This document shows, one piece after another, positions 1-57,532 of a stretch of 64,000 nt of DNA (its first letter is position 1; every line of letters starts with the position of its first letter). Origin of the DNA: Hyphomicrobium sp. CS1BSMeth3 (GTDB taxonomy: Bacteria > Pseudomonadota > Alphaproteobacteria > Rhizobiales > Hyphomicrobiaceae); contig NZ_FPEI01000004.1 in NCBI RefSeq assembly GCF_900117415.1, positions 186,001-250,000 of the forward strand, given 5' to 3'. A program made the translations under genes and the position numbers. The notes beneath the pieces are model-generated. The model was not told the DNA's origin and did no database searches. It saw nothing but the letters and a program-made list of their open reading frames with translations.

Positions 1-444
1 GTCCTTGGCGGCGATGTTCATCGCCACATGGATGGTCATCGCGGCATCGAAGAGGCCATCCGCGAAGGGGAGGTGCGTGGCATCACCGACCTGGAAATTC
101 AGGCGATCGCTCAGCCCAACCCATTGGCTCAGCGCCGTCGCCGCCTCGCAGAAGGCTGGCGTGAGATCGATGCCCGTCATGCGGCATCCGTAGGTCTCGA
201 CGAGCGTCCGGGCCGGGCCGCCAAGACCACTGCCGATGTCGAGCACGTGCGAGCTCGCCGAGAGACCCAGGCCTTCGGCAAGCTCGAGGGTCGCCTTGCG
301 GCCGCGGATGTGGAACTCGTCGATTGCGCCGAGATCGGCGGTCTTGAGCGTCGCGATATCCTTCCCGGCCTCTCGCAGCTTGTCGGCAATCTTGTCGGCC
401 AGATTCTGCGTCGCGCTGTAGTGGCTTGCCACCTTGTCGGTCAT
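1..444 (-). CDS. class I SAM-dependent methyltransferase (C-terminus beyond window)
   Basis: The first 148 codons are visible; the gene runs off the left edge. The N-terminus reads MTDKVASHYSATQNLADKI. At about residues 66-76 the SAM-binding motif I, LDIGSGLGGPA, is followed by TGIDLTPAFC, where an acidic residue would contact the SAM ribose. This fits the Methyltransf_11/25 fold of small-molecule methyltransferases. The ATG at 444 is preferred to the one at 450 because a GGAG sits 8 bases upstream. It lies 41 bp downstream of the FMN dehydrogenase gene on the same strand and may share its transcript. The substrate is unknown. Family is secure; function is not. Confidence 0.8.
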   Translation of the reverse strand, partial: MTDKVASHYSATQNLADKIADKLREAGKDIATLKTADLGAIDEFHIRGRKATLELAEGLGLSASSHVLDIGSGLGGPARTLVETYGCRMTGIDLTPAFCEAATALSQWVGLSDRLNFQVGDATHLPFADGLFDAAMTIHVAMNIAAKD

Positions 445-485
445 GGGCATCACTCCGGTTGCTGCGCAATAGGCTTGTTGAGAAT

Positions 486-1631
486 TCAGCGGAATCGCAG
501 GTTCGAGCGCGACAACTGCCCGACGGACGTGCATCCCATGAGCTTCATGTCGCGCTCGATCTCTTCCCGCATCAATCCGAGTGCGCGCTCGACGCCGGGC
601 CGTCCGGCCGCCGCCAGCGCAAACAAATAGTAGCGGCCGACGCCAACAGCCTTGGCGCCGAGCGACAGCGCCTTGAGAACGTGGGTCCCGCGCTGGATGC
701 CGCCGTCCATGAGCACGTCGATACGATCACCGACGGCATCGACGATCTCGGCGAGCTGATCGAAGGCGCTGCGTGAGCCGTCGAGCTGGCGGCCACCATG
801 GTTCGAGATGACGATGCCCGTGCAGCCGATATCGATGGCGCGTCGCGCATCCTCGACGCTCATGACACCCTTCAGGCAGAACTGACCGCCCCACTGCTCG
901 ACCATCTCCGCAATGTCCCGCCAGCTCATCGTCGGATCGAGCATGTTGGTGAAATATGCACCGATCGAGCTGACGCCGCCGTCCATGCTGATGTGCTCGT
1001 CGAGCTGCGGCAGGCGGAACTTCTCGTGCGTGAGGTAGTCGATGGCCCAGCGCGGCTTCATCGCGAACTCGAGTACGCCCCCGAGCGTCAGACGGAAGGG
1101 AATGGCGAAGCCCGTGCGCAGATCGCGCTCGCGATTGCCGCCGGTGATGGAATCGACGGTCAGCATCATGATCGGAACGCCGGCCGTCTTGGCCCGCTCG
1201 AGCATGGCGCGATTGAGGCCGCGGTCCTTGTGAAAATAGAACTGATAGACCTGCGGACAGGAGAAGTTCGACCTTATCTCCTCCAGGCTGACGGTGCCGA
1301 GCGAGGACACGCCGAACATGGTGCCGAACTTGTCGGCCGCATGCGCAACGGCGCGCTCGCCCTCGTGATGAAAGAGCCGCTGCAGGGCCGTCGGCGAGCA
1401 ATAAACAGGCATGTCGAGCGTATGCCCGAGGACCTTCACAGAAAGATCGACTTCGCCGAGCCCTGTCAGCACGTTCGGTACGAGGTCGCAGGCCTCGAAC
1501 GCGCGCGTGTTCCGGCGCAGTGTTGCCTCGTCGTCGGCGCCACCGTCGATGTAGTTGAATATCGGACCTGGAAGGCGCCGGCGCGCCAGCTCGCGAAAGT
1601 CGTGAAAGTTGTGGCAATGATGCAGACGCAT
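486..1631 (-). CDS. FMN-dependent alpha-hydroxy acid dehydrogenase/oxidase (LldD/glycolate oxidase family)
   Basis: This flavoprotein of 381 residues has the full TIM-barrel of the FMN 2-hydroxyacid oxidising family, which converts L-2-hydroxyacids to 2-oxoacids. The N-terminal YIDGGADDEATLRRN is at 27-41. The FMN-contact lysine lies in LKGV (254). The catalytic block ISNHGGRQLDGS has the base His278 and substrate-binding Arg281. The phosphate-binding DGGIQRG begins at 309. No membrane segment is seen. It lies 39 bp downstream of the SauS-like gene and is probably cotranscribed. That context makes a sulfonated or C2-C3 hydroxyacid a possible substrate, which is inference. L-lactate, glycolate and mandelate are equally allowed by sequence. 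Confidence 0.9.
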   Translation of the reverse strand: MRLHHCHNFHDFRELARRRLPGPIFNYIDGGADDEATLRRNTRAFEACDLVPNVLTGLGEVDLSVKVLGHTLDMPVYCSPTALQRLFHHEGERAVAHAADKFGTMFGVSSLGTVSLEEIRSNFSCPQVYQFYFHKDRGLNRAMLERAKTAGVPIMMLTVDSITGGNRERDLRTGFAIPFRLTLGGVLEFAMKPRWAIDYLTHEKFRLPQLDEHISMDGGVSSIGAYFTNMLDPTMSWRDIAEMVEQWGGQFCLKGVMSVEDARRAIDIGCTGIVISNHGGRQLDGSRSAFDQLAEIVDAVGDRIDVLMDGGIQRGTHVLKALSLGAKAVGVGRYYLFALAAAGRPGVERALGLMREEIERDMKLMGCTSVGQLSRSNLRFR

Positions 1632-1670
1632 TGAGCCACCTTCAGCGACGCTGGCCGCACTAAGACGGCG

Positions 1671-3110
1671 CTACTTCCCCCACTTCGCCCAGTACGGCCC
1701 GAACAGCGCCTCTTCCGATGGCTTGTCCTCGGGAATGGTCATGACGAGATGCGTGATATTGACGAAGTTACGCCAGGAAAGGTTATCCGAGAAGGCGTTC
1801 GCCTGCCACGTGCCGCAGCCCATGGTGAGCGTGAACGGAAGCGCGTTGTTGAAGCCACCGCCATTGCCGAAGGTGTGCGCCTGATTGACGAGGACGCGCA
1901 CGACGTCGGTGTCCGCGGCAAGCTCGCGCGCGTGGTCCATGTTCTTCGTGTGGATGCCACAGGAATGGCCGCGGCCCTGATAGTCGAGAATGTTCTTCAC
2001 GACCCGCTTGGCATCGGCGAAATCCTTCGCGCGATAGATGGTGAGCACCAGCGAGAGCTTCTCGCCCGAGAGCGGATGTGCCTTACCGATACCCGTCTCC
2101 TCGGCCATGACGAACTTGCAGCCGCGCGCGCGTGACGAAAGCTCGAAGACCTCGACGAGGCGCTCAGGCCCCTGCGCGATCACGGCGCGATTGAGCTTGC
2201 CGTCAACCCACAAGCGATCGACGATGCGCGCGCGCTCGGCCTTGTCGGCCATGTAGCCGCCGTGCTTCTCGAGCGCCTTGATCGCTGCATCGTAGACATC
2301 ATCGACGATGACGACCGCGTTCTCCGAGGAGCACGACGTGGCGTTGTCGAATGTTTTCGACTGCATGATGAGGTCGGCGGCCTGATCGAGATCGGCGCTC
2401 GTGTCGATGATGACAGGCGCATTGCCGAGGCCGACTCCGAGCGCGGGCTTCCCCGACTTGTAGGCGGCCTTCACGTTCGCCTGGCTGCCTGTCGCGACGA
2501 CGAGATCGGACATCTCCATGAGCCGCGTCGTCATCTCGCGCGATACGGGGTTCGGCAGCATCTGCACGAGGTCAGCAGGCAAACCGATGCGCGTCAGCTC
2601 CGCGCGCATTCCGGCGACGGCCGGCTCGGTCGCAGCCCAGGCGGCCGGCGGCGGCGCGATGATGATGGCGTTCCCGCCCTTGATGGCCATCATGGCCTTG
2701 TTGACGGGCGTTGCCTGCGGGTTCGTCGAGGGCGTGATGGCCGCGACGACGCCGACGGGCTTGGCCCACTTCACGAGGCCCTTCTCGGGCATCTCCTCGA
2801 TGATGCCGGTGGATTTTGCGCGGAGCAGATCACGCAGCGTGCCGAAGGTCTTGCGCTGGTTCTTGATGACCTTGCTCTCGACATGGCCGATACCCGTCAC
2901 CTCCACGGCCAGCTCGGCATAGCGCCTCGCCGTCTCCGGCTTGTAGATCGACCAGGCGAGTGCCGTAACCGCCTCGTCAATGCGGGGCTGGCCCTCGCGC
3001 GCGATCTCGGCCGCAAAGGTAGCCATGGCCGCGCGGGCGCGCCTGATGAGGTCGGGGACGGGGTCTGCGGCTGTGGTCTCGGCGGGCTTGCGGGCGGGCG
3101 TATCCTGCAT
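1671..3110 (-). CDS. sauS: acylating sulfoacetaldehyde dehydrogenase (SauS type)
   Basis: This 479-residue aldehyde dehydrogenase superfamily member is of the CoA-acylating kind. The catalytic cysteine is Cys260 in NATSCSSENA, and the nucleotide-binding region holds VVAAITPSTNP near 121-131. No general-base glutamate motif of non-acylating enzymes is visible. SauS enzymes interconvert sulfoacetyl-CoA and sulfoacetaldehyde using NADP(H) or NAD(H). The assignment rests on the overall pattern plus the divergent xsc, whose substrate is sulfoacetaldehyde. A ligase like SauT and a transporter like SauU are not present here. Acetaldehyde dehydrogenase is the alternative. Start ATG has AGAGGGA upstream. 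The FMN dehydrogenase and methyltransferase follow on the same strand. Confidence 0.75.
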   Translation of the reverse strand: MQDTPARKPAETTAADPVPDLIRRARAAMATFAAEIAREGQPRIDEAVTALAWSIYKPETARRYAELAVEVTGIGHVESKVIKNQRKTFGTLRDLLRAKSTGIIEEMPEKGLVKWAKPVGVVAAITPSTNPQATPVNKAMMAIKGGNAIIIAPPPAAWAATEPAVAGMRAELTRIGLPADLVQMLPNPVSREMTTRLMEMSDLVVATGSQANVKAAYKSGKPALGVGLGNAPVIIDTSADLDQAADLIMQSKTFDNATSCSSENAVVIVDDVYDAAIKALEKHGGYMADKAERARIVDRLWVDGKLNRAVIAQGPERLVEVFELSSRARGCKFVMAEETGIGKAHPLSGEKLSLVLTIYRAKDFADAKRVVKNILDYQGRGHSCGIHTKNMDHARELAADTDVVRVLVNQAHTFGNGGGFNNALPFTLTMGCGTWQANAFSDNLSWRNFVNITHLVMTIPEDKPSEEALFGPYWAKWGK

Positions 3111-3171
3111 GGCGTCCCTCTTGGGCTAGGACTTCCGGCTGTTTTTCTCTTTTCGCCTATTCGGCCATCAA

Positions 3172-3198
3172 TTGACAGGCTGCGCACCGGCATGTCAA
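3172..3198. promoter_or_regulatory. inverted repeat TTGACA-N15-TGTCAA between sauS and xsc
   Basis: In the 206-bp divergent gap, TTGACA (3172-3177) and its exact reverse complement TGTCAA (3193-3198) are separated by 15 bases. The left arm also matches a -35 hexamer. It could be an operator for a shared regulator or part of the xsc promoter. Seen by eye only; a 6-bp pair can arise by chance. Confidence 0.3.
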
Positions 3199-3316
3199 AC
3201 CGCGAGACGAAACGTCCTGGTGAATGAGACGCTGCAGTGCGTCATCCGCGGCTTGGCGGCGCCTGGGATGTCCGCAAAGATAGCCGAGTACGTGAACGAT
3301 CAAGGGAGGTGCGGCC

Positions 3317-5095
3317 ATGACCAAGATGACGACCGAAGAAGCGTTTGTGAAAGTGCTCCAGATGCACGGCATCGAGCACGCTTTCGGCATCATCGGCTCG
3401 GCCTTCATGCCGATCTCGGACCTTTTCCCGAAGGCCGGCATCACCTTCTGGGACGTCGCCAACGAGATGAACGGCGGCTTCATGTGCGACGGGTACACCC
3501 GCGCCTCCGGCAAGATCGCCATGTGCGTGGCGCAGAACGGCCCGGGCATCACGAACTTCGTCACGCCGGTCAAGACCGCCTACTGGAACCACACGCCCAT
3601 GCTGCTGGTGACCCCGCAGGCGGCGAACAAGACCATCGGCCAGGGCGGCTTCCAGGAAGTGGAGCAGATGGCCCTCTTCCGCGACATGGTCTGCTACCAG
3701 GAGGAAGTGCGCGATCCCTCGCGCATTGCCGAAGTGCTCAACCGGGTGATCCTGAAGGCGAAGCGCCTCTCCGCGCCGGCGCAGATCAACGTTCCGCGCG
3801 ACTACTGGACCCAGGTCGTCGACATCAGCCTCCCGGCCGTCGTCGAGTTCGAGCGGCCTGCGGGCGGCGCCGAGGCGATCGCGGAAGCGGCCAAGCTGCT
3901 CTCGGAAGCGAAGTTTCCGGTCATTCTCTCGGGTGCTGGCGTCGTCATCGGTGGCGCGATCCCGGACTGCAAGGCGCTGGCCGAGAAGCTCGATGCGCCC
4001 GTGTGCAGCGGCTACCAGCACAATGACAGCTTCCCCGGCAGCCATCCGCTCGCCGTCGGCCCACTCGGCTACAACGGCTCGAAGGCGGCCATGGAGCTGA
4101 TCGCGAAAGCCGACGTGGTGCTCGCACTCGGCACGCGTCTCAATCCCTTCTCGACGCTGCCGGGCTACGGCATCGACTACTGGCCGAAGGAAGCCAAGAT
4201 CATCCAGGTGGACATCAACCCGGATCGGATCGGCCTCACGAAGCCGATCGCCGTCGGCATCGTCGGTGACGCCAAGCAGGTCGCGCGCCAGATCCTCGGC
4301 AAGCTCACGCCGACCGCCGGCAATGCCGGCCGCGACGAGCGCAAGGCCCTCGTCCATCGCACGAAGTCCGCCTGGCTGCAGACGCTCTCGGGCATGGATC
4401 ACGAGGATGATGATCCCGGCACGACGTGGAACGAGCGCGCGAGGAAGCGCGATCCGAACCGCCTGTCGCCGCGTCAGGCCTGGCGGGCCATTCAGGCCGG
4501 CCTGCCGAAGGAGGCGATCATCTCCACGGACATCGGCAACAACTGCGCGATCGGCAATGCCTATCCGACCTTCGAGCAGGGGCGGAAGTATCTGGCGCCA
4601 GGCCTCTTCGGGCCGTGCGGCTATGGCTTCCCCGCCATCATCGGCGCGAAGATCGGCTGCCCCGATACGCCGGTCGTGGGCTTTGCCGGTGACGGCGCCT
4701 TCGGCATCTCGATGAGCGAGATGGGCTCGGTCGGGCGCAAGGAATATCCCGGCATCACGATGGTCGTTTTCCGCAACTACCAGTGGGGTGCGGAGAAGCG
4801 CAACACGACGCTCTGGTACGACGACAACTTCGTCGGCACGGAGCTCGATCCGAACCTGAGCTACGCCAAGGTCGCCGAGGGCTGCGGGCTCAAGGGCGTC
4901 GCAGTGAGGACGCAGGACGAGCTCAAGGCCGCGATCGCGGAGTCGTGCGAGGCGCAGAAGAAGGGCATCACGACCTTCATCGAGGTCATCCTCAATCAGG
5001 AGCTCGGCGAGCCCTTCCGCCGTGATGCCATGAAGAAGCCCGTCGTCGTCGCTGGCATCAAGCGCGAGGACTTCCGGCCGCAGAAGGTGGATTAA
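3317..5095 (+). CDS. xsc: sulfoacetaldehyde acetyltransferase
   Basis: Xsc is a thiamine-diphosphate enzyme that splits sulfoacetaldehyde with phosphate into acetyl phosphate and sulfite. It is the desulfonation step for taurine, isethionate, sulfoacetate and sulfolactate. The protein has 592 residues. It has an N-terminal PYR domain with the catalytic glutamate Glu50 in VANEMNGG. The central domain follows, then a C-terminal PP domain with GDGAFGISMSEMGS and, about 30 residues on, FRNYQWGAEKRN. Both length and motifs match Xsc rather than acetolactate synthase. A strong GGGAGG lies 7 bases before the ATG. It is divergent from sauS. No phosphotransacetylase or sulfite exporter gene is in the window. 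Confidence 0.93.
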   Translation: MTKMTTEEAFVKVLQMHGIEHAFGIIGSAFMPISDLFPKAGITFWDVANEMNGGFMCDGYTRASGKIAMCVAQNGPGITNFVTPVKTAYWNHTPMLLVTPQAANKTIGQGGFQEVEQMALFRDMVCYQEEVRDPSRIAEVLNRVILKAKRLSAPAQINVPRDYWTQVVDISLPAVVEFERPAGGAEAIAEAAKLLSEAKFPVILSGAGVVIGGAIPDCKALAEKLDAPVCSGYQHNDSFPGSHPLAVGPLGYNGSKAAMELIAKADVVLALGTRLNPFSTLPGYGIDYWPKEAKIIQVDINPDRIGLTKPIAVGIVGDAKQVARQILGKLTPTAGNAGRDERKALVHRTKSAWLQTLSGMDHEDDDPGTTWNERARKRDPNRLSPRQAWRAIQAGLPKEAIISTDIGNNCAIGNAYPTFEQGRKYLAPGLFGPCGYGFPAIIGAKIGCPDTPVVGFAGDGAFGISMSEMGSVGRKEYPGITMVVFRNYQWGAEKRNTTLWYDDNFVGTELDPNLSYAKVAEGCGLKGVAVRTQDELKAAIAESCEAQKKGITTFIEVILNQELGEPFRRDAMKKPVVVAGIKREDFRPQKVD

Positions 5096-33684: not shown

Positions 33685-35127
33685 TCAGACAGGAGCCGGC
33701 GTTGCGCCGGGAGCGCCGATGTTCATAGCCTTCTCGGGTCCGCCGAACCGCGCGACTAGCGCCGCTTGATCGGCCTTGGCGCGTGCGTCTGTCGTCTCGG
33801 GATCGACGAGCGTCCTGAGAACGGCCTCGAAGCTCGAGACGACGGACGCGTATTTTGGATCGGATGCAAGATCGTGCGCCTCGCCTGGATCGACGCGAAG
33901 GTCGAACAGCTCGGCGGGATAACCGACGTAGTAGTTGTACTTGTAGTGCCCGTTGCGCAGCATGAATGCCGCCGAAGGCGAGCCGAAGGCGTGATACTCG
34001 GAGAATACGGTGCGCTTCGGATCGTCGGCTGTGCTGCCGATCTCGAACAGGGAGCGGCCCGGCAGGGGGATTTCGGACCAGGCACATGCGTCCTCGCCGA
34101 CGGCGTCCATGATGGTCGGCGCTAGATCGATAAGACTGACCGGCGTGTGGCACACGCGACCGGCGGCTACGTCAGGGCCGGCAACGATCATCGGCACGCC
34201 CACGGCATCGTCGTAGTGCGTGCTCTTGCCCCACATGCCGCGCGCACCGATGTTGTCACCGTGATCGCTCGTGTAGATCACGCGCGTCGTATCGCTGAGC
34301 CCACTGCGTTCCAGTGCGCCGATGACCCGCCCCACCTGTCGGTCGACCCATGTGCAGAGACCGTAATAGCAGGCCGTTGCGAGGAGCCGGCGCTCGTCAT
34401 CCAGTCCATCGTCCACAGGATGACGGCAGTGACTATCCTCGAGCCATGGATGACGCGGAAAGCCGTTCTTGGGATGCAGCCGCGGATAGGGCATCCGGTC
34501 GACGGGATAGAGATCGAGTATGTCCTGCGGGACCATCAGCGGGAAATGGGGAGCCACGAAGCCGATGTAGAGCACCCACGGGCGCTCGTGCTTCTCGCCG
34601 GCGGCGCGCTCGATCCAGGTCTCGGCCTCGGTCGCGATCCGATCGTCGTAAATGTTGTACTTCGACGTGCCGGCGCCCATCGGGTTCATCATGACATGCG
34701 CGCGCTCACTGAAATCGGCCTTGCCGTCGCGCAGCGCGCCCCAGACCATGCCATAGCCGCCATAGATGTGCATGGGATGATACTGATGGTCGAAGCCGGT
34801 CGGGTCTTCGGCATTGCGATAGTGCAGCTTGCCGATCGAATCTACGCGGTGCCCGGTCCGTTGCAGCGCATGTCCCCAGCCCGGCACCGAGCCGTCATAG
34901 GCCGTGGCATTATCCCACGTCCCGAGCTCATGCACGTAGCGGCCCGTCGCGAACGAGGCGCGCGAGGGAACGCATATCGGGCAGTTGCAGTAGGCCGCGT
35001 CGAAAAGTGTGCCGCGCGCGGCGAGCCGGTCGAGGTTTGGCGTTTGCACGAACGGGTGGCCTGCCGCGCCCATGGCGCGCGGGTGATGCTCGTCCGACAT
35101 GATGACAACGAGATTGTGAGGATGCAT
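33685..35127 (-). CDS. type I sulfatase (formylglycine-dependent), cytoplasmic
   Basis: This 480-residue alkaline-phosphatase-fold sulfatase starts with the metal-site motif NLVVIMSDEHHPRAMG. The active-site cysteine to be converted to formylglycine is Cys52 in CVPSRASFATGRYVH. IYTSDHGDNIGARGMWGKS gives further metal and substrate ligands. There is no signal peptide, so it acts in the cytoplasm, unlike many sulfatases. It is the last gene of the ABC transporter operon and is 54 bp downstream of the FGE gene. The substrate (a sulfate ester, possibly a phosphonate or phosphate monoester) is not known. Confidence 0.9.
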   Translation of the reverse strand: MHPHNLVVIMSDEHHPRAMGAAGHPFVQTPNLDRLAARGTLFDAAYCNCPICVPSRASFATGRYVHELGTWDNATAYDGSVPGWGHALQRTGHRVDSIGKLHYRNAEDPTGFDHQYHPMHIYGGYGMVWGALRDGKADFSERAHVMMNPMGAGTSKYNIYDDRIATEAETWIERAAGEKHERPWVLYIGFVAPHFPLMVPQDILDLYPVDRMPYPRLHPKNGFPRHPWLEDSHCRHPVDDGLDDERRLLATACYYGLCTWVDRQVGRVIGALERSGLSDTTRVIYTSDHGDNIGARGMWGKSTHYDDAVGVPMIVAGPDVAAGRVCHTPVSLIDLAPTIMDAVGEDACAWSEIPLPGRSLFEIGSTADDPKRTVFSEYHAFGSPSAAFMLRNGHYKYNYYVGYPAELFDLRVDPGEAHDLASDPKYASVVSSFEAVLRTLVDPETTDARAKADQAALVARFGGPEKAMNIGAPGATPAPV

Positions 35128-36162: not shown

Positions 36163-37623
36163 CTAGTTGTAAACCGGCTTTGTCCCGGGCACAGGCGAAT
36201 AGCCGAAGCTTCCTTTTGCGAGAATGGCCTCCCGGCCTCCGAGTGCAGCAATCTTCGCGCCTTGATCCTTGCGTGCCTGCGCGTCTGCCGCTTCGGGATC
36301 GACGATCTTTCGCAAAGCTGCTTCGCAGTCCGCAACAAAGCCGCGGTATCCCGCATCCTGACCAAGATCGCGCGTTTCGTACGGGTCGGCTTCAAGATCG
36401 AACAACTGCGGCGGCATGCCGACGTAGTAGACGTACTTGAACCTGCCGTGCCGGATCATGAAGGCGCCGGTGGCCGCGCCTGCGGCATGATACTCGCTGA
36501 GCACCGTGCGCTGCGGTGCCTTGCCGCTGACGATGTCGAGGAGCGGCGCACCAGGCAGACCGGCATCGTCGGGATGCGGCGCGAGCCCTGCGCAGTCGAT
36601 GATGGTCGGGAAGCAGTCGACGAGGGTTACAGGCTCGCGGCATACGACGCCCTGCGGCACATCCGGACCGGCCATGATCATCGGCACGGCCGCGGACTCC
36701 TCGTACATGTTCGACTTGCCCCAGAGGCCGCGCGTACCGAGGTTATCGCCGTGATCACTCGTGTAGATGATGCGGGTATCGCCGGACAGCCCATTGTCCT
36801 CAAGAGCTTTCATCAGGCGTCCGACGTTATTGTCGACGAAGCTGACGAGGCCGTAGTAGGCAGCGATCGCCTTGCGCACCTTGCTCGGGTCATCAAAACC
36901 CTGATCGTAAATCTGGCAGGCGCGCATTGCATTGACGTACGGATGGTCGGGCCGCTCGGCTTCGGTATAAAGCCCAGGCCACGGCACCTTGTCCTCGGGA
37001 TAGAGATTGTACCATTCGGGGCGTGCGATCAGCGGGAAGTGCGGGCACACGAGCGACACGAAGAGCGTCCAGGGCTTGTCGTCCTTCTGCGCAGCGCGCT
37101 CGCCCAGCCAAGTCTCGGCGGCGGCCGTGATGCGATCGTCGTAGCCCTGGTAGGTGGAGTCGCCGCAGCCGGCGTCCGCTGCCAACCTCAACGCAGCCTT
37201 CCGTGGAGGTGGAGGATCGCGCAGCATTCCGATCGGGTCGCCGATACCTTCCACGACGTGCAGCGGCATGTGCTCCTTGGTGAAACCGTTGTCCTCGTCA
37301 GCACTGCGGAAGTGCAGCTTGCCGATCGAGTCCACGCGATGGCCTGCGGCCTTCAGACGGTGCGCCCAGGACGGCACACTGCCGTCGTACGGATTGCCGT
37401 TGTCCCAAAAGCGAATGTCGTGGACGTACCGTCCCGTCTGGAAGCTCGCCCGCGACGGCACGCAGATGGGCGAATTGCAGTAGGCATCCGTAAAGTGAAC
37501 GCCGCTCGCCGCCAGGCGGTCGAGATTGGGCGTGCGGATCAGCGAATTTCCGTTGCACCCGAGGACGCGCTTGCTGTGCTCGTCCGACATGATGAACAGC
37601 AGGTTTCTGGGCTTCTTGCTCAT
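36163..37623 (-). CDS. type I sulfatase (formylglycine-dependent), cytoplasmic, second copy
   Basis: This 486-residue sulfatase is clearly homologous to the one at 33.7-35.1 kb. It has NLLFIMSDEHSKRVLG at the start, the activatable Cys54 in CVPSRASFQTGRYVH, IGKLHFRSAD and YTSDHGDNLGTRGLWGKS. It also lacks a signal peptide. It lies directly between the ABC ATPase gene (9-bp gap) and the FGE gene (9-bp gap), a tight operon. The middle regions of the two sulfatases differ in length and sequence, which suggests different substrates or sequential steps on one substrate. Confidence 0.9.
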   Translation of the reverse strand: MSKKPRNLLFIMSDEHSKRVLGCNGNSLIRTPNLDRLAASGVHFTDAYCNSPICVPSRASFQTGRYVHDIRFWDNGNPYDGSVPSWAHRLKAAGHRVDSIGKLHFRSADEDNGFTKEHMPLHVVEGIGDPIGMLRDPPPPRKAALRLAADAGCGDSTYQGYDDRITAAAETWLGERAAQKDDKPWTLFVSLVCPHFPLIARPEWYNLYPEDKVPWPGLYTEAERPDHPYVNAMRACQIYDQGFDDPSKVRKAIAAYYGLVSFVDNNVGRLMKALEDNGLSGDTRIIYTSDHGDNLGTRGLWGKSNMYEESAAVPMIMAGPDVPQGVVCREPVTLVDCFPTIIDCAGLAPHPDDAGLPGAPLLDIVSGKAPQRTVLSEYHAAGAATGAFMIRHGRFKYVYYVGMPPQLFDLEADPYETRDLGQDAGYRGFVADCEAALRKIVDPEAADAQARKDQGAKIAALGGREAILAKGSFGYSPVPGTKPVYN

Positions 37624-56026: not shown

Positions 56027-57532
56027 TTACTCCTGATCGAGCGCCACGGCCTCCCGCTTTGCACGAAGCACCGGCAGGAGCGGCGCCAGGATCATCGCCG
56101 CTGCCACGATCAGGCAGGCGAGCGAGATCGGCCGCTCGATGAAGACCGAGAAATCGCCCTGCGAGAGGATGAGCGACTTCCTGAGGTTGTTCTCGACCAT
56201 GGGCCCGAGCACGAAGGCGAGCACCAGCGGCGCCGGCTCATAGCCGAACTTGCGCATGAGATAGCCGATGAGACCGAAGACCGTCATGACGAACACGTCG
56301 AAGACGGCACTGCCCGAGCTGAACACACCGACGATGCAGAACATCAGGATCAGCGGGAAGAGCAGCTTGTAGGGCACCTTCAGCACCTGCACCCACATGC
56401 CGATCAGCGGGAAGTTCAGGATCAGCAGCATGATGTTGCCGATGTACATGCTGGCAACGATGCCCCAGAAGATCCCCGGGTTCTGCGTGATGAGGAGCGG
56501 GCCCGGCTGAATGCCGTGGATGATGAAGGCACCGAGCAGCAGCGCCATCACCACATTCGGCGGAATGCCGAGCGTGAGCAGGGGAATGAACGCGCCGCCG
56601 GCCGCCGAATTGTTCGCCGCTTCAGGCCCTGCGACGCCCTCGATGGCACCCTTGCCGAACATCTCGGGGCGCTTGGAGAGCCGGCGCTCGAGCGCGTACG
56701 AGGCAAACGAGGAGATGACCGCGCCGCCGCCGGGCAGAATGCCGAGGAAGAAGCCCAAGATGGTGCCGCGCGCGATCGCCCATTTCGAGTAGGCCCAATC
56801 CTGAAGGGTGGGCCAAAGGCTGCCGATGCGCGCGGAGACGACCTCGCGCTGTACGCTGCGCTCGATGTTGGCGAGGATCTCGGCGACGCCGAAGAGGCCC
56901 ATGACCACCGGAATGAGGCCGACGCCATCGAGCAGCTCGAGGCGATCGAAGGTGAGGCGCGGTGCCGCCGTGATCTGGTCGATGCCGACGAGGCCGAGCG
57001 TGACGCCGACGCAGGCCATGAGCAGGGACTTCGCCATGGAGCCCTGCGTGAGGAAGGCGAGGACCGTCAGGCCGAGCACCATGAGGCTGAAATACTCGGG
57101 CGGACCGAAAGCAATGGCGAACTTGGCGAGCCAGGGGGCCACCAGCATCAGCGCCACGATGGCGAACGTGCCGGCGACGAACGAGCCGATCGCGGCAATG
57201 CCGAGCGCGGGGCCGGCGCGGCCGTTCTTGGCCATCTGGTGGCCGTCGAGGCAGGTGATGACGGAGGCCGCCTCGCCCGGGATGTTGACCAGGATCGAGG
57301 TCGTGGAGCCGCCGTACATGGAACCGTAGTAGATGCCGGCCATCATGATGATGCCGGCTTCAGGCGAGCCCGAGAGCGTGACCGGCAGCAGCAGCGCCAT
57401 GGCCGAGACCGGCCCGATGCCGGGGAGCACGCCGACGAGCGTGCCGATGAACACGCCGAAGAAGCAGGCCATCAGATTGATGGGCTGAAGCGCTACTGCG
57501 AAGCCGTGGCCGAGCGCCGAAAGGATTTCCAT
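56027..57532 (-). CDS. tctA: tripartite tricarboxylate transporter large permease TctA
   Basis: TctA is the large membrane subunit of TTT-family importers, which use ion gradients to bring in carboxylates delivered by a periplasmic TctC. The 501-residue protein has about 12 helices. [21 protein letters not shown] and [20 protein letters not shown] near the N-terminus, then [20 protein letters not shown] and [20 protein letters not shown] in the second half, are TctA landmarks. It follows tctB by 10 bases. Confidence 0.94.

Follow-up and report, generated by a model that had tools for sequence, protein, structure and literature searches.

The window analyzed here, a 64,000-nucleotide stretch of the Hyphomicrobium sp. 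CS1BSMeth3 genome (G000:C5:186001-250000; G000 denotes this genome, and C2, C3 and C5 are its contigs), carries at its left end sauS and xsc, two genes whose products would form and consume sulfoacetaldehyde, followed on the sauS side by genes for a flavin mononucleotide (FMN)-dependent dehydrogenase and a methyltransferase. The locus comprises the following features:

3317..5095, + strand: xsc, sulfoacetaldehyde acetyltransferase (592 aa; TIGR03457 951.9 bits, cut-off 676.4; PRK07525 1025 bits, cut-off 620)
1671..3110, - strand: sauS, CoA-acylating sulfoacetaldehyde dehydrogenase (479 aa; NF047625 732.1 bits, cut-off 600)
486..1631, - strand: FMN-dependent 2-hydroxyacid dehydrogenase, LldD / mandelate dehydrogenase-like (PF01070 433.9 bits)
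1..450, - strand: 5' part of a class I S-adenosylmethionine (SAM) methyltransferase (Pfam Methyltransf_11/25 for the part in the window), continuing left of the window (L009:9623-10450)
3111..3316, no strand: divergent promoter region, 206 bp, aligned across four genomes of the genus
3172..3198, no strand: inverted repeat TTGACA-N15-TGTCAA, candidate shared operator

As the original prediction stated, sauS and xsc are divergent across the 206 bp between their start codons, which the coordinates and the curated cut-offs confirmed. The predicted gene order after sauS was correct as well: the FMN dehydrogenase gene begins 39 bp past sauS, and the start of the methyltransferase gene is at 450 or 444, some 35-41 bp past the FMN stop, with its end at L009:9623, 377 bp left of the window edge. 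Xsc alone scored above the TIGR03457 cut-off in G000. The sauS product is assigned as SauS by its family cut-off, and activity on sulfoacetyl-CoA is predicted for it. Neither a SauT ligase nor a known transporter had been noticed beside sauS, and this holds at the locus; a ligase pair is nonetheless encoded elsewhere in the genome, on C3. Extension of the sequence to the left, which had been proposed as the place to look for a ligase or transporter, yielded neither: no CoA ligase was recognized between sauS and xsc or in the 9.6 kb left of the methyltransferase gene, and no tripartite tricarboxylate transporter (TTT) or major facilitator superfamily (MFS) transporter resembling the reference proteins was found in these 9.6 kb. 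Of their eight main open reading frames (ORFs), compared with Pfam, two encode EamA transporters, and this stretch has no other transporter genes; four correspond to an M19 dipeptidase, a transglutaminase, an Alpha-E protein and an ATP-grasp protein, and the last two had no match. No TctA of the sauS-linked type adjoins sauS.

GTDB genomes were scanned once with SauS, and the best 80 of 153 loci were kept. A ligase gene lay within 400 bp after sauS at 70 of these 80 loci (66 ADP-forming and SucCD-like, the SauCD type; 4 AMP-type, the SauT type), which makes the genus of the window the odd one out. At the remaining ten, sauS was followed by the FMN gene (one locus, G553), by the methyltransferase gene (two, G555 and G556) or by another or no recognized gene (four), or the sequence ended within 500 bp (three). 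The ligase names SauCD and SauT and the TTT name SauXYZ follow the accessible text of PMC12625764 and PMC12890257. Annotated plasmids show the linked arrangement: in Azospirillum and Indioceanicola, sauS is accompanied by genes resembling sucC and sucD, by TTT transporter and phosphate acetyltransferase genes, and by IclR and xsc; in Rhodococcus, it occurs with sucC/D-like genes, MFS and xsc, and in Sulfitobacter with an AMP-binding gene and TTT. The closest named SauS matches (95-97%) were found on contigs of metagenome-assembled genomes (MAGs) that all belong to the window's own genus, namely the Hyphomicrobiaceae contigs JALHOW010000001.1 and JALHMB010000001.1 and the unplaced pseudomonadotal contig CAUJKI010000676.1. 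SauS identity was 95-97% in three genomes of the genus and 88-92% in the fourth (two pieces); outside the genus, the 12 family genomes that come next have 76-80%, and 14 more have 51-64%.

Proteins above the NF047625 cut-off are also encoded at five loci (L047, L049, L051, L056 and L057) whose fetched stretches contain no recognized ligase, TTT or xsc; these SauS-family proteins may be other than sulfoacetaldehyde enzymes. At L056, the divergent neighbour of the sauS-like gene reads, from its motif, like acetate kinase.

The absence of a ligase beside sauS does not imply a genome without a ligase. Each of the five genus genomes contains one match to a SauC of the family (61-62%), and four of them have a second, SucC-like gene (38-39%). 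The sauC gene of G000 (C3:716236-717369) adjoins sauD (C3:715367-716239). SauC was detected at E <= 1e-90 in 26 of the 102 family genomes, and SauS was present in all 26; by their coordinates, sauC and sauS are adjacent in 20 of these, the exceptions being the five genus genomes and G621. In a SauC tree of 47 rows, the unlinked proteins formed a single clade (99/98) nested in the sauS-linked SauC proteins of the same family (100/95). The simplest account of this topology would be a single departure of sauCD from the operon, preceding the split between the genus of G621 and that of the window, and the ligase pair has probably been separate since the common ancestor of these two genera. Both genes are under purifying selection in the genus (dN/dS 0.05-0.12 for the pairs computed).

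Three other ideas about the ligase were rejected. Loss of the ligase is ruled out, as a close SauC is present in all five genus genomes. That the C3 pair is a malate thiokinase or a plain succinyl-CoA synthetase was rejected on the score with the malate--CoA ligase model (258.7 of 604), the presence of the second SucC-like gene in four of the five genus genomes, and the placement of the pair among the sauS-linked SauC proteins in the tree.

In one relative, Filomicrobium sp. MED665 (G625), a CaiB-type class III CoA-transferase gene occupies the position of the ligase between sauS and xsc (L298:11380-12597, + strand; L165:7104-8321, - strand). The best NCBIfam match of its product was succinate--glutarate CoA-transferase (320.8 bits, cut-off 750). 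If this enzyme acts on sulfoacetate, CoA transfer would be a third kind of sulfoacetate activation; a literature search found no paper on it.

Genes for the remaining steps were also found away from sauS. A TctA gene at C2:393733, accompanied by two partner genes, encodes a protein with 61% identity to a sauS-linked TctA of the same family (G616), and the other 11 of the 12 TTT permease matches in G000 (E <= 1e-60) are only 32-37% identical to sauS-linked TctA. A SauXYZ-like TTT is also present in G556 and, as two pieces, in G554. The phosphate acetyltransferase gene (pta) at C3:564368 gave 333.3 bits with PF01515; its ORF scored above the cut-off of PRK09653 (317.5 vs 310) and below that of TIGR00651 (302.6 vs 311.2). 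One of these TTT permeases, 36% identical to the sauS-linked type, is encoded in the window at about 56048-57532 on the - strand (C5:242048-243532).

The half-sites of the inverted repeat between sauS and xsc are identical in all four genus genomes in which this gap is visible, where the mean column identity of the gap is 73% and a second conserved block lies just downstream of the repeat. The repeat occurs once in the 64-kb window, compared with about 0.0006 occurrences expected from base composition. A regulator common to sauS and xsc is likely, with the repeat as its candidate site. The repeat was not found in the two TTT loci and the single pta locus searched (<=1 mismatch, spacer 14-16), and a promoter scan of positions 400-3400 revealed no sigma-70-like site.

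The FMN enzyme consists of 381 aa. In an alignment with glycolate oxidase, Y24, Y129, R164, K230, H254 and R257 were identical, and W108 and L161 were replaced by the smaller residues Leu and Gly, respectively, so that the pocket may be larger; residue numbers and roles are those of glycolate oxidase. The enzyme resembles the LldD / (S)-mandelate dehydrogenase branch in PF01070 and in the catalytic Y, Y, R, K, H and R, but differs from it in scoring below the cut-offs of LldD (NF033901, 273.7 vs 550) and PRK11197 (310.2 vs 376). It was also below the MftD and lactate oxidase cut-offs, and PADLOC reported nothing for it. The gene is present in two of the five genus genomes (G000 and G553, 92% identical, dN/dS 0.077) and was not found in G554, G555 and G556 (best match 39%); G555 and G556 still have the methyltransferase gene by sauS. 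The FMN gene would have been inserted between sauS and the methyltransferase gene or lost from the other species. Its synonymous distance between G000 and G553 (0.59) is within the range of xsc, sauD, sauS and sauC (0.46-0.60; methyltransferase, 0.96), and so the gene is probably as old as the split between these two genomes.

Homologues of the FMN enzyme at E <= 1e-100 occur in 47 of 385 genomes of the class, G000 included, and in 8 of the 102 family genomes. Outside the genus these are six of 97 genomes; SauS is absent from five of the six, and in the sixth (G625) the homologue and sauS lie on different contigs. Neither SauS nor a true Xsc was found near the 20 orthologs fetched from the class (56-80% identical; best Xsc-like score 92 bits), and an association of the FMN enzyme with sulfonate genes was rejected, as these 20 loci showed none. 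The enzyme seems to be widespread and its presence here incidental. A different FMN 2-hydroxyacid dehydrogenase (PRK11197 263.9 bits; 175 bits to that of the window) is encoded after sauS-sauC-sauD in another lineage (L243:13543-14700 / L059:5587-6744).

In all four genus genomes with a visible end, the methyltransferase gene directly follows sauS or, where there is one, the FMN gene; the G554 contig starts inside sauS, and no methyltransferase copy was found in that genome. Within the genus, the protein is 81-84% identical (dN 0.10-0.13, dN/dS 0.08-0.12) and changes faster than its neighbours. At the level of the genus, its gene is a constant member of the sauS transcription unit. Its AlphaFold2 (AF2) model (mean predicted local distance difference test score, pLDDT, 93.5) resembles RebM, AtmM, TleD, SpnF and phosphoethanolamine methyltransferases; since these are general small-molecule methyltransferases only, the modelled fold would fix no substrate. 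The protein scored below the sarcosine/dimethylglycine N-methyltransferase cut-off (NF041675, 59 vs 550). Its use as a marker of sulfonate clusters was rejected, as no sauS was present at 29 class loci (1.5 kb flanks) or at 16 family loci. Among the titles and abstract openings returned by literature searches, none named a cluster of sauS with a methyltransferase or an FMN gene. Relatives within the family (L356, L358, L360 and L361) are encoded beside genes for acetate--CoA ligase (acs), for a TTT receptor-like protein and for thiamine diphosphate (ThDP) enzymes, of which the one scanned is of the PRK08199 type.

Given which genes are present, the families they belong to, how they are linked and the ligase phylogeny, we consider it likely that the organism has the ordinary sulfoacetate route (SauCD, SauS, Xsc and Pta) with a dispersed operon, that is, a known pathway in an unusual layout. 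SauCD, an ADP-forming ligase, would convert sulfoacetate, presumably taken up by the C2 TTT, to sulfoacetyl-CoA, SauS would reduce it to sulfoacetaldehyde, Xsc would cleave the latter to sulfite and acetyl phosphate, and Pta would form acetyl-CoA. The suggestion in the original prediction that SauS funnels sulfoacetyl-CoA gains support from the unlinked SauCD pair of the sauS-linked clade, from pta and from the SauXYZ-like TTT. The FMN enzyme would most likely oxidize an ordinary 2-hydroxyacid and perform no required step; its gene and the methyltransferase gene look like lineage-specific additions rather than a new sulfonate route.

Several observations weigh against this interpretation. No SauXYZ-like TTT was found in G553 and G555, which makes transport the weakest step of the proposed route. 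Among the 31 family genomes with SauS of >=50% identity, five have no SauC at E <= 1e-90: G598 and G600 have SauT, G625 has the CoA-transferase, and in G617 SauC is cut by the contig end; in G531, the 573 bp from sauS to the contig end (L154:7430-8002) contained no ligase-like stretch, which is unexplained. NCBIfam names neither ligase subunit, as the genome's own SauC scored 364.3 against the SucC cut-off of 370 and SauD 317.8 against the SucD cut-off of 336. The repeat was not found (<=1 mismatch, spacer 14-16) in the five sauCD loci of the genus, and sauCD of G000 is preceded by a gene for farnesyl diphosphate synthase; co-regulation of sauCD with sauS and xsc is thus unsupported. Lone SauS-family proteins above the cut-off in other members of the order show that family membership is no proof of the substrate. 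Finally, with the FMN gene of the second lineage (L243), some connection of sauS to FMN enzymes is conceivable.

It is conceivable, if doubtful, that the FMN dehydrogenase and the methyltransferase are a separate small module that only shares the transcript, for example one modifying an unrelated 2-hydroxyacid. Relatives of both occur in other contexts, and G537 has homologues of the FMN enzyme (79%) and the methyltransferase (59%), on different contigs; in G555 and G556, where the FMN gene is missing, the methyltransferase gene still lies by sauS, which shows that the two are no obligate pair. We regard it as unlikely that SauS works oxidatively, with sulfoacetaldehyde from taurine or another source being split between Xsc for carbon use and SauS plus SauCD for sulfoacetate excretion with a gain of ATP, as in the SqwD/SqwKL variant of the sulfo-transketolase (sulfo-TK) pathway, which runs oxidatively according to the accessible text of PMC12890257. 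The unlinked ligase and transporter, as well as the two genus genomes without a SauXYZ-like TTT, would fit this direction, but TTT or MFS genes lie in the same stretch at 16 of the 20 family sauC-sauS loci, which points to uptake. Quite improbable is the idea that the genus rebuilt the sauS operon around the methyltransferase, with the FMN enzyme in two species, to act on a sulfonate or its product; if true, the sulfoacetaldehyde node would gain an undescribed entry in which a sulfonated hydroxyacid is oxidized or methylated. Least probable of all is the C2/C3 sulfonate route of the original prediction, taken here as one in which the FMN enzyme would oxidize sulfolactate or a related sulfonated hydroxyacid to sulfopyruvate for a decarboxylase and Xsc: the short gaps that place the gene in the sauS unit, the intact catalytic residues with two smaller pocket positions, the low dN/dS and the L243 arrangement are in its favour, but it is unsupported given the absence of the gene from three of the five genus genomes, the 20 ortholog loci without SauS or true Xsc and the six family homologues apart from SauS.

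The sulfatase locus mentioned in the original prediction presumably corresponds to two neighbouring ORFs of the window (33685-35127 and 36163-37623) with the sulfatase signature CVPSRASxxTG.

For the preferred interpretation, an ordinary route with a dispersed operon, the consequence is that sauS without a neighbouring ligase is not necessarily a sign of a new pathway. The likely sulfoacetate capacity of this organism would escape annotation based on clusters, because the ligase pair is on another contig. We also flag the methyltransferase that stays with sauS-xsc and the CoA-transferase that takes the position of the ligase in a relative.

Among the closest known systems are the Hyphomicrobiaceae loci L146, L148, L149, L155, L157 and L163, which have the same sauS and xsc families in the same host family but keep TTT, sauS, sauCD and xsc in one cluster, unlike the genus of the window. 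In Cupriavidus necator H16, Xsc catalyzes the step that follows sulfoacetaldehyde formation. As far as the accessible text of PMC12625764 describes it, the sauST(U) system of that organism follows the same route from sulfoacetate via sulfoacetyl-CoA to sulfoacetaldehyde, but its cluster includes the ligase SauT and the MFS transporter SauU, whereas the ligase of the window genome is of the SauCD type and unlinked. The sauSCD-SauXYZ system of Bilophila wadsworthia and sauSCD of a sponge symbiont, in the accessible text of PMC12625764 and PMC12890257, share with the window genome an ADP-forming sulfoacetate-CoA ligase, SauS leading to sulfoacetaldehyde, and a TTT-type transporter. In contrast to these systems, which proceed by isethionate formation and IseG, the window has xsc to consume sulfoacetaldehyde, and its genome has the ligase and candidate transporter on other contigs, with the FMN and methyltransferase genes after sauS instead.

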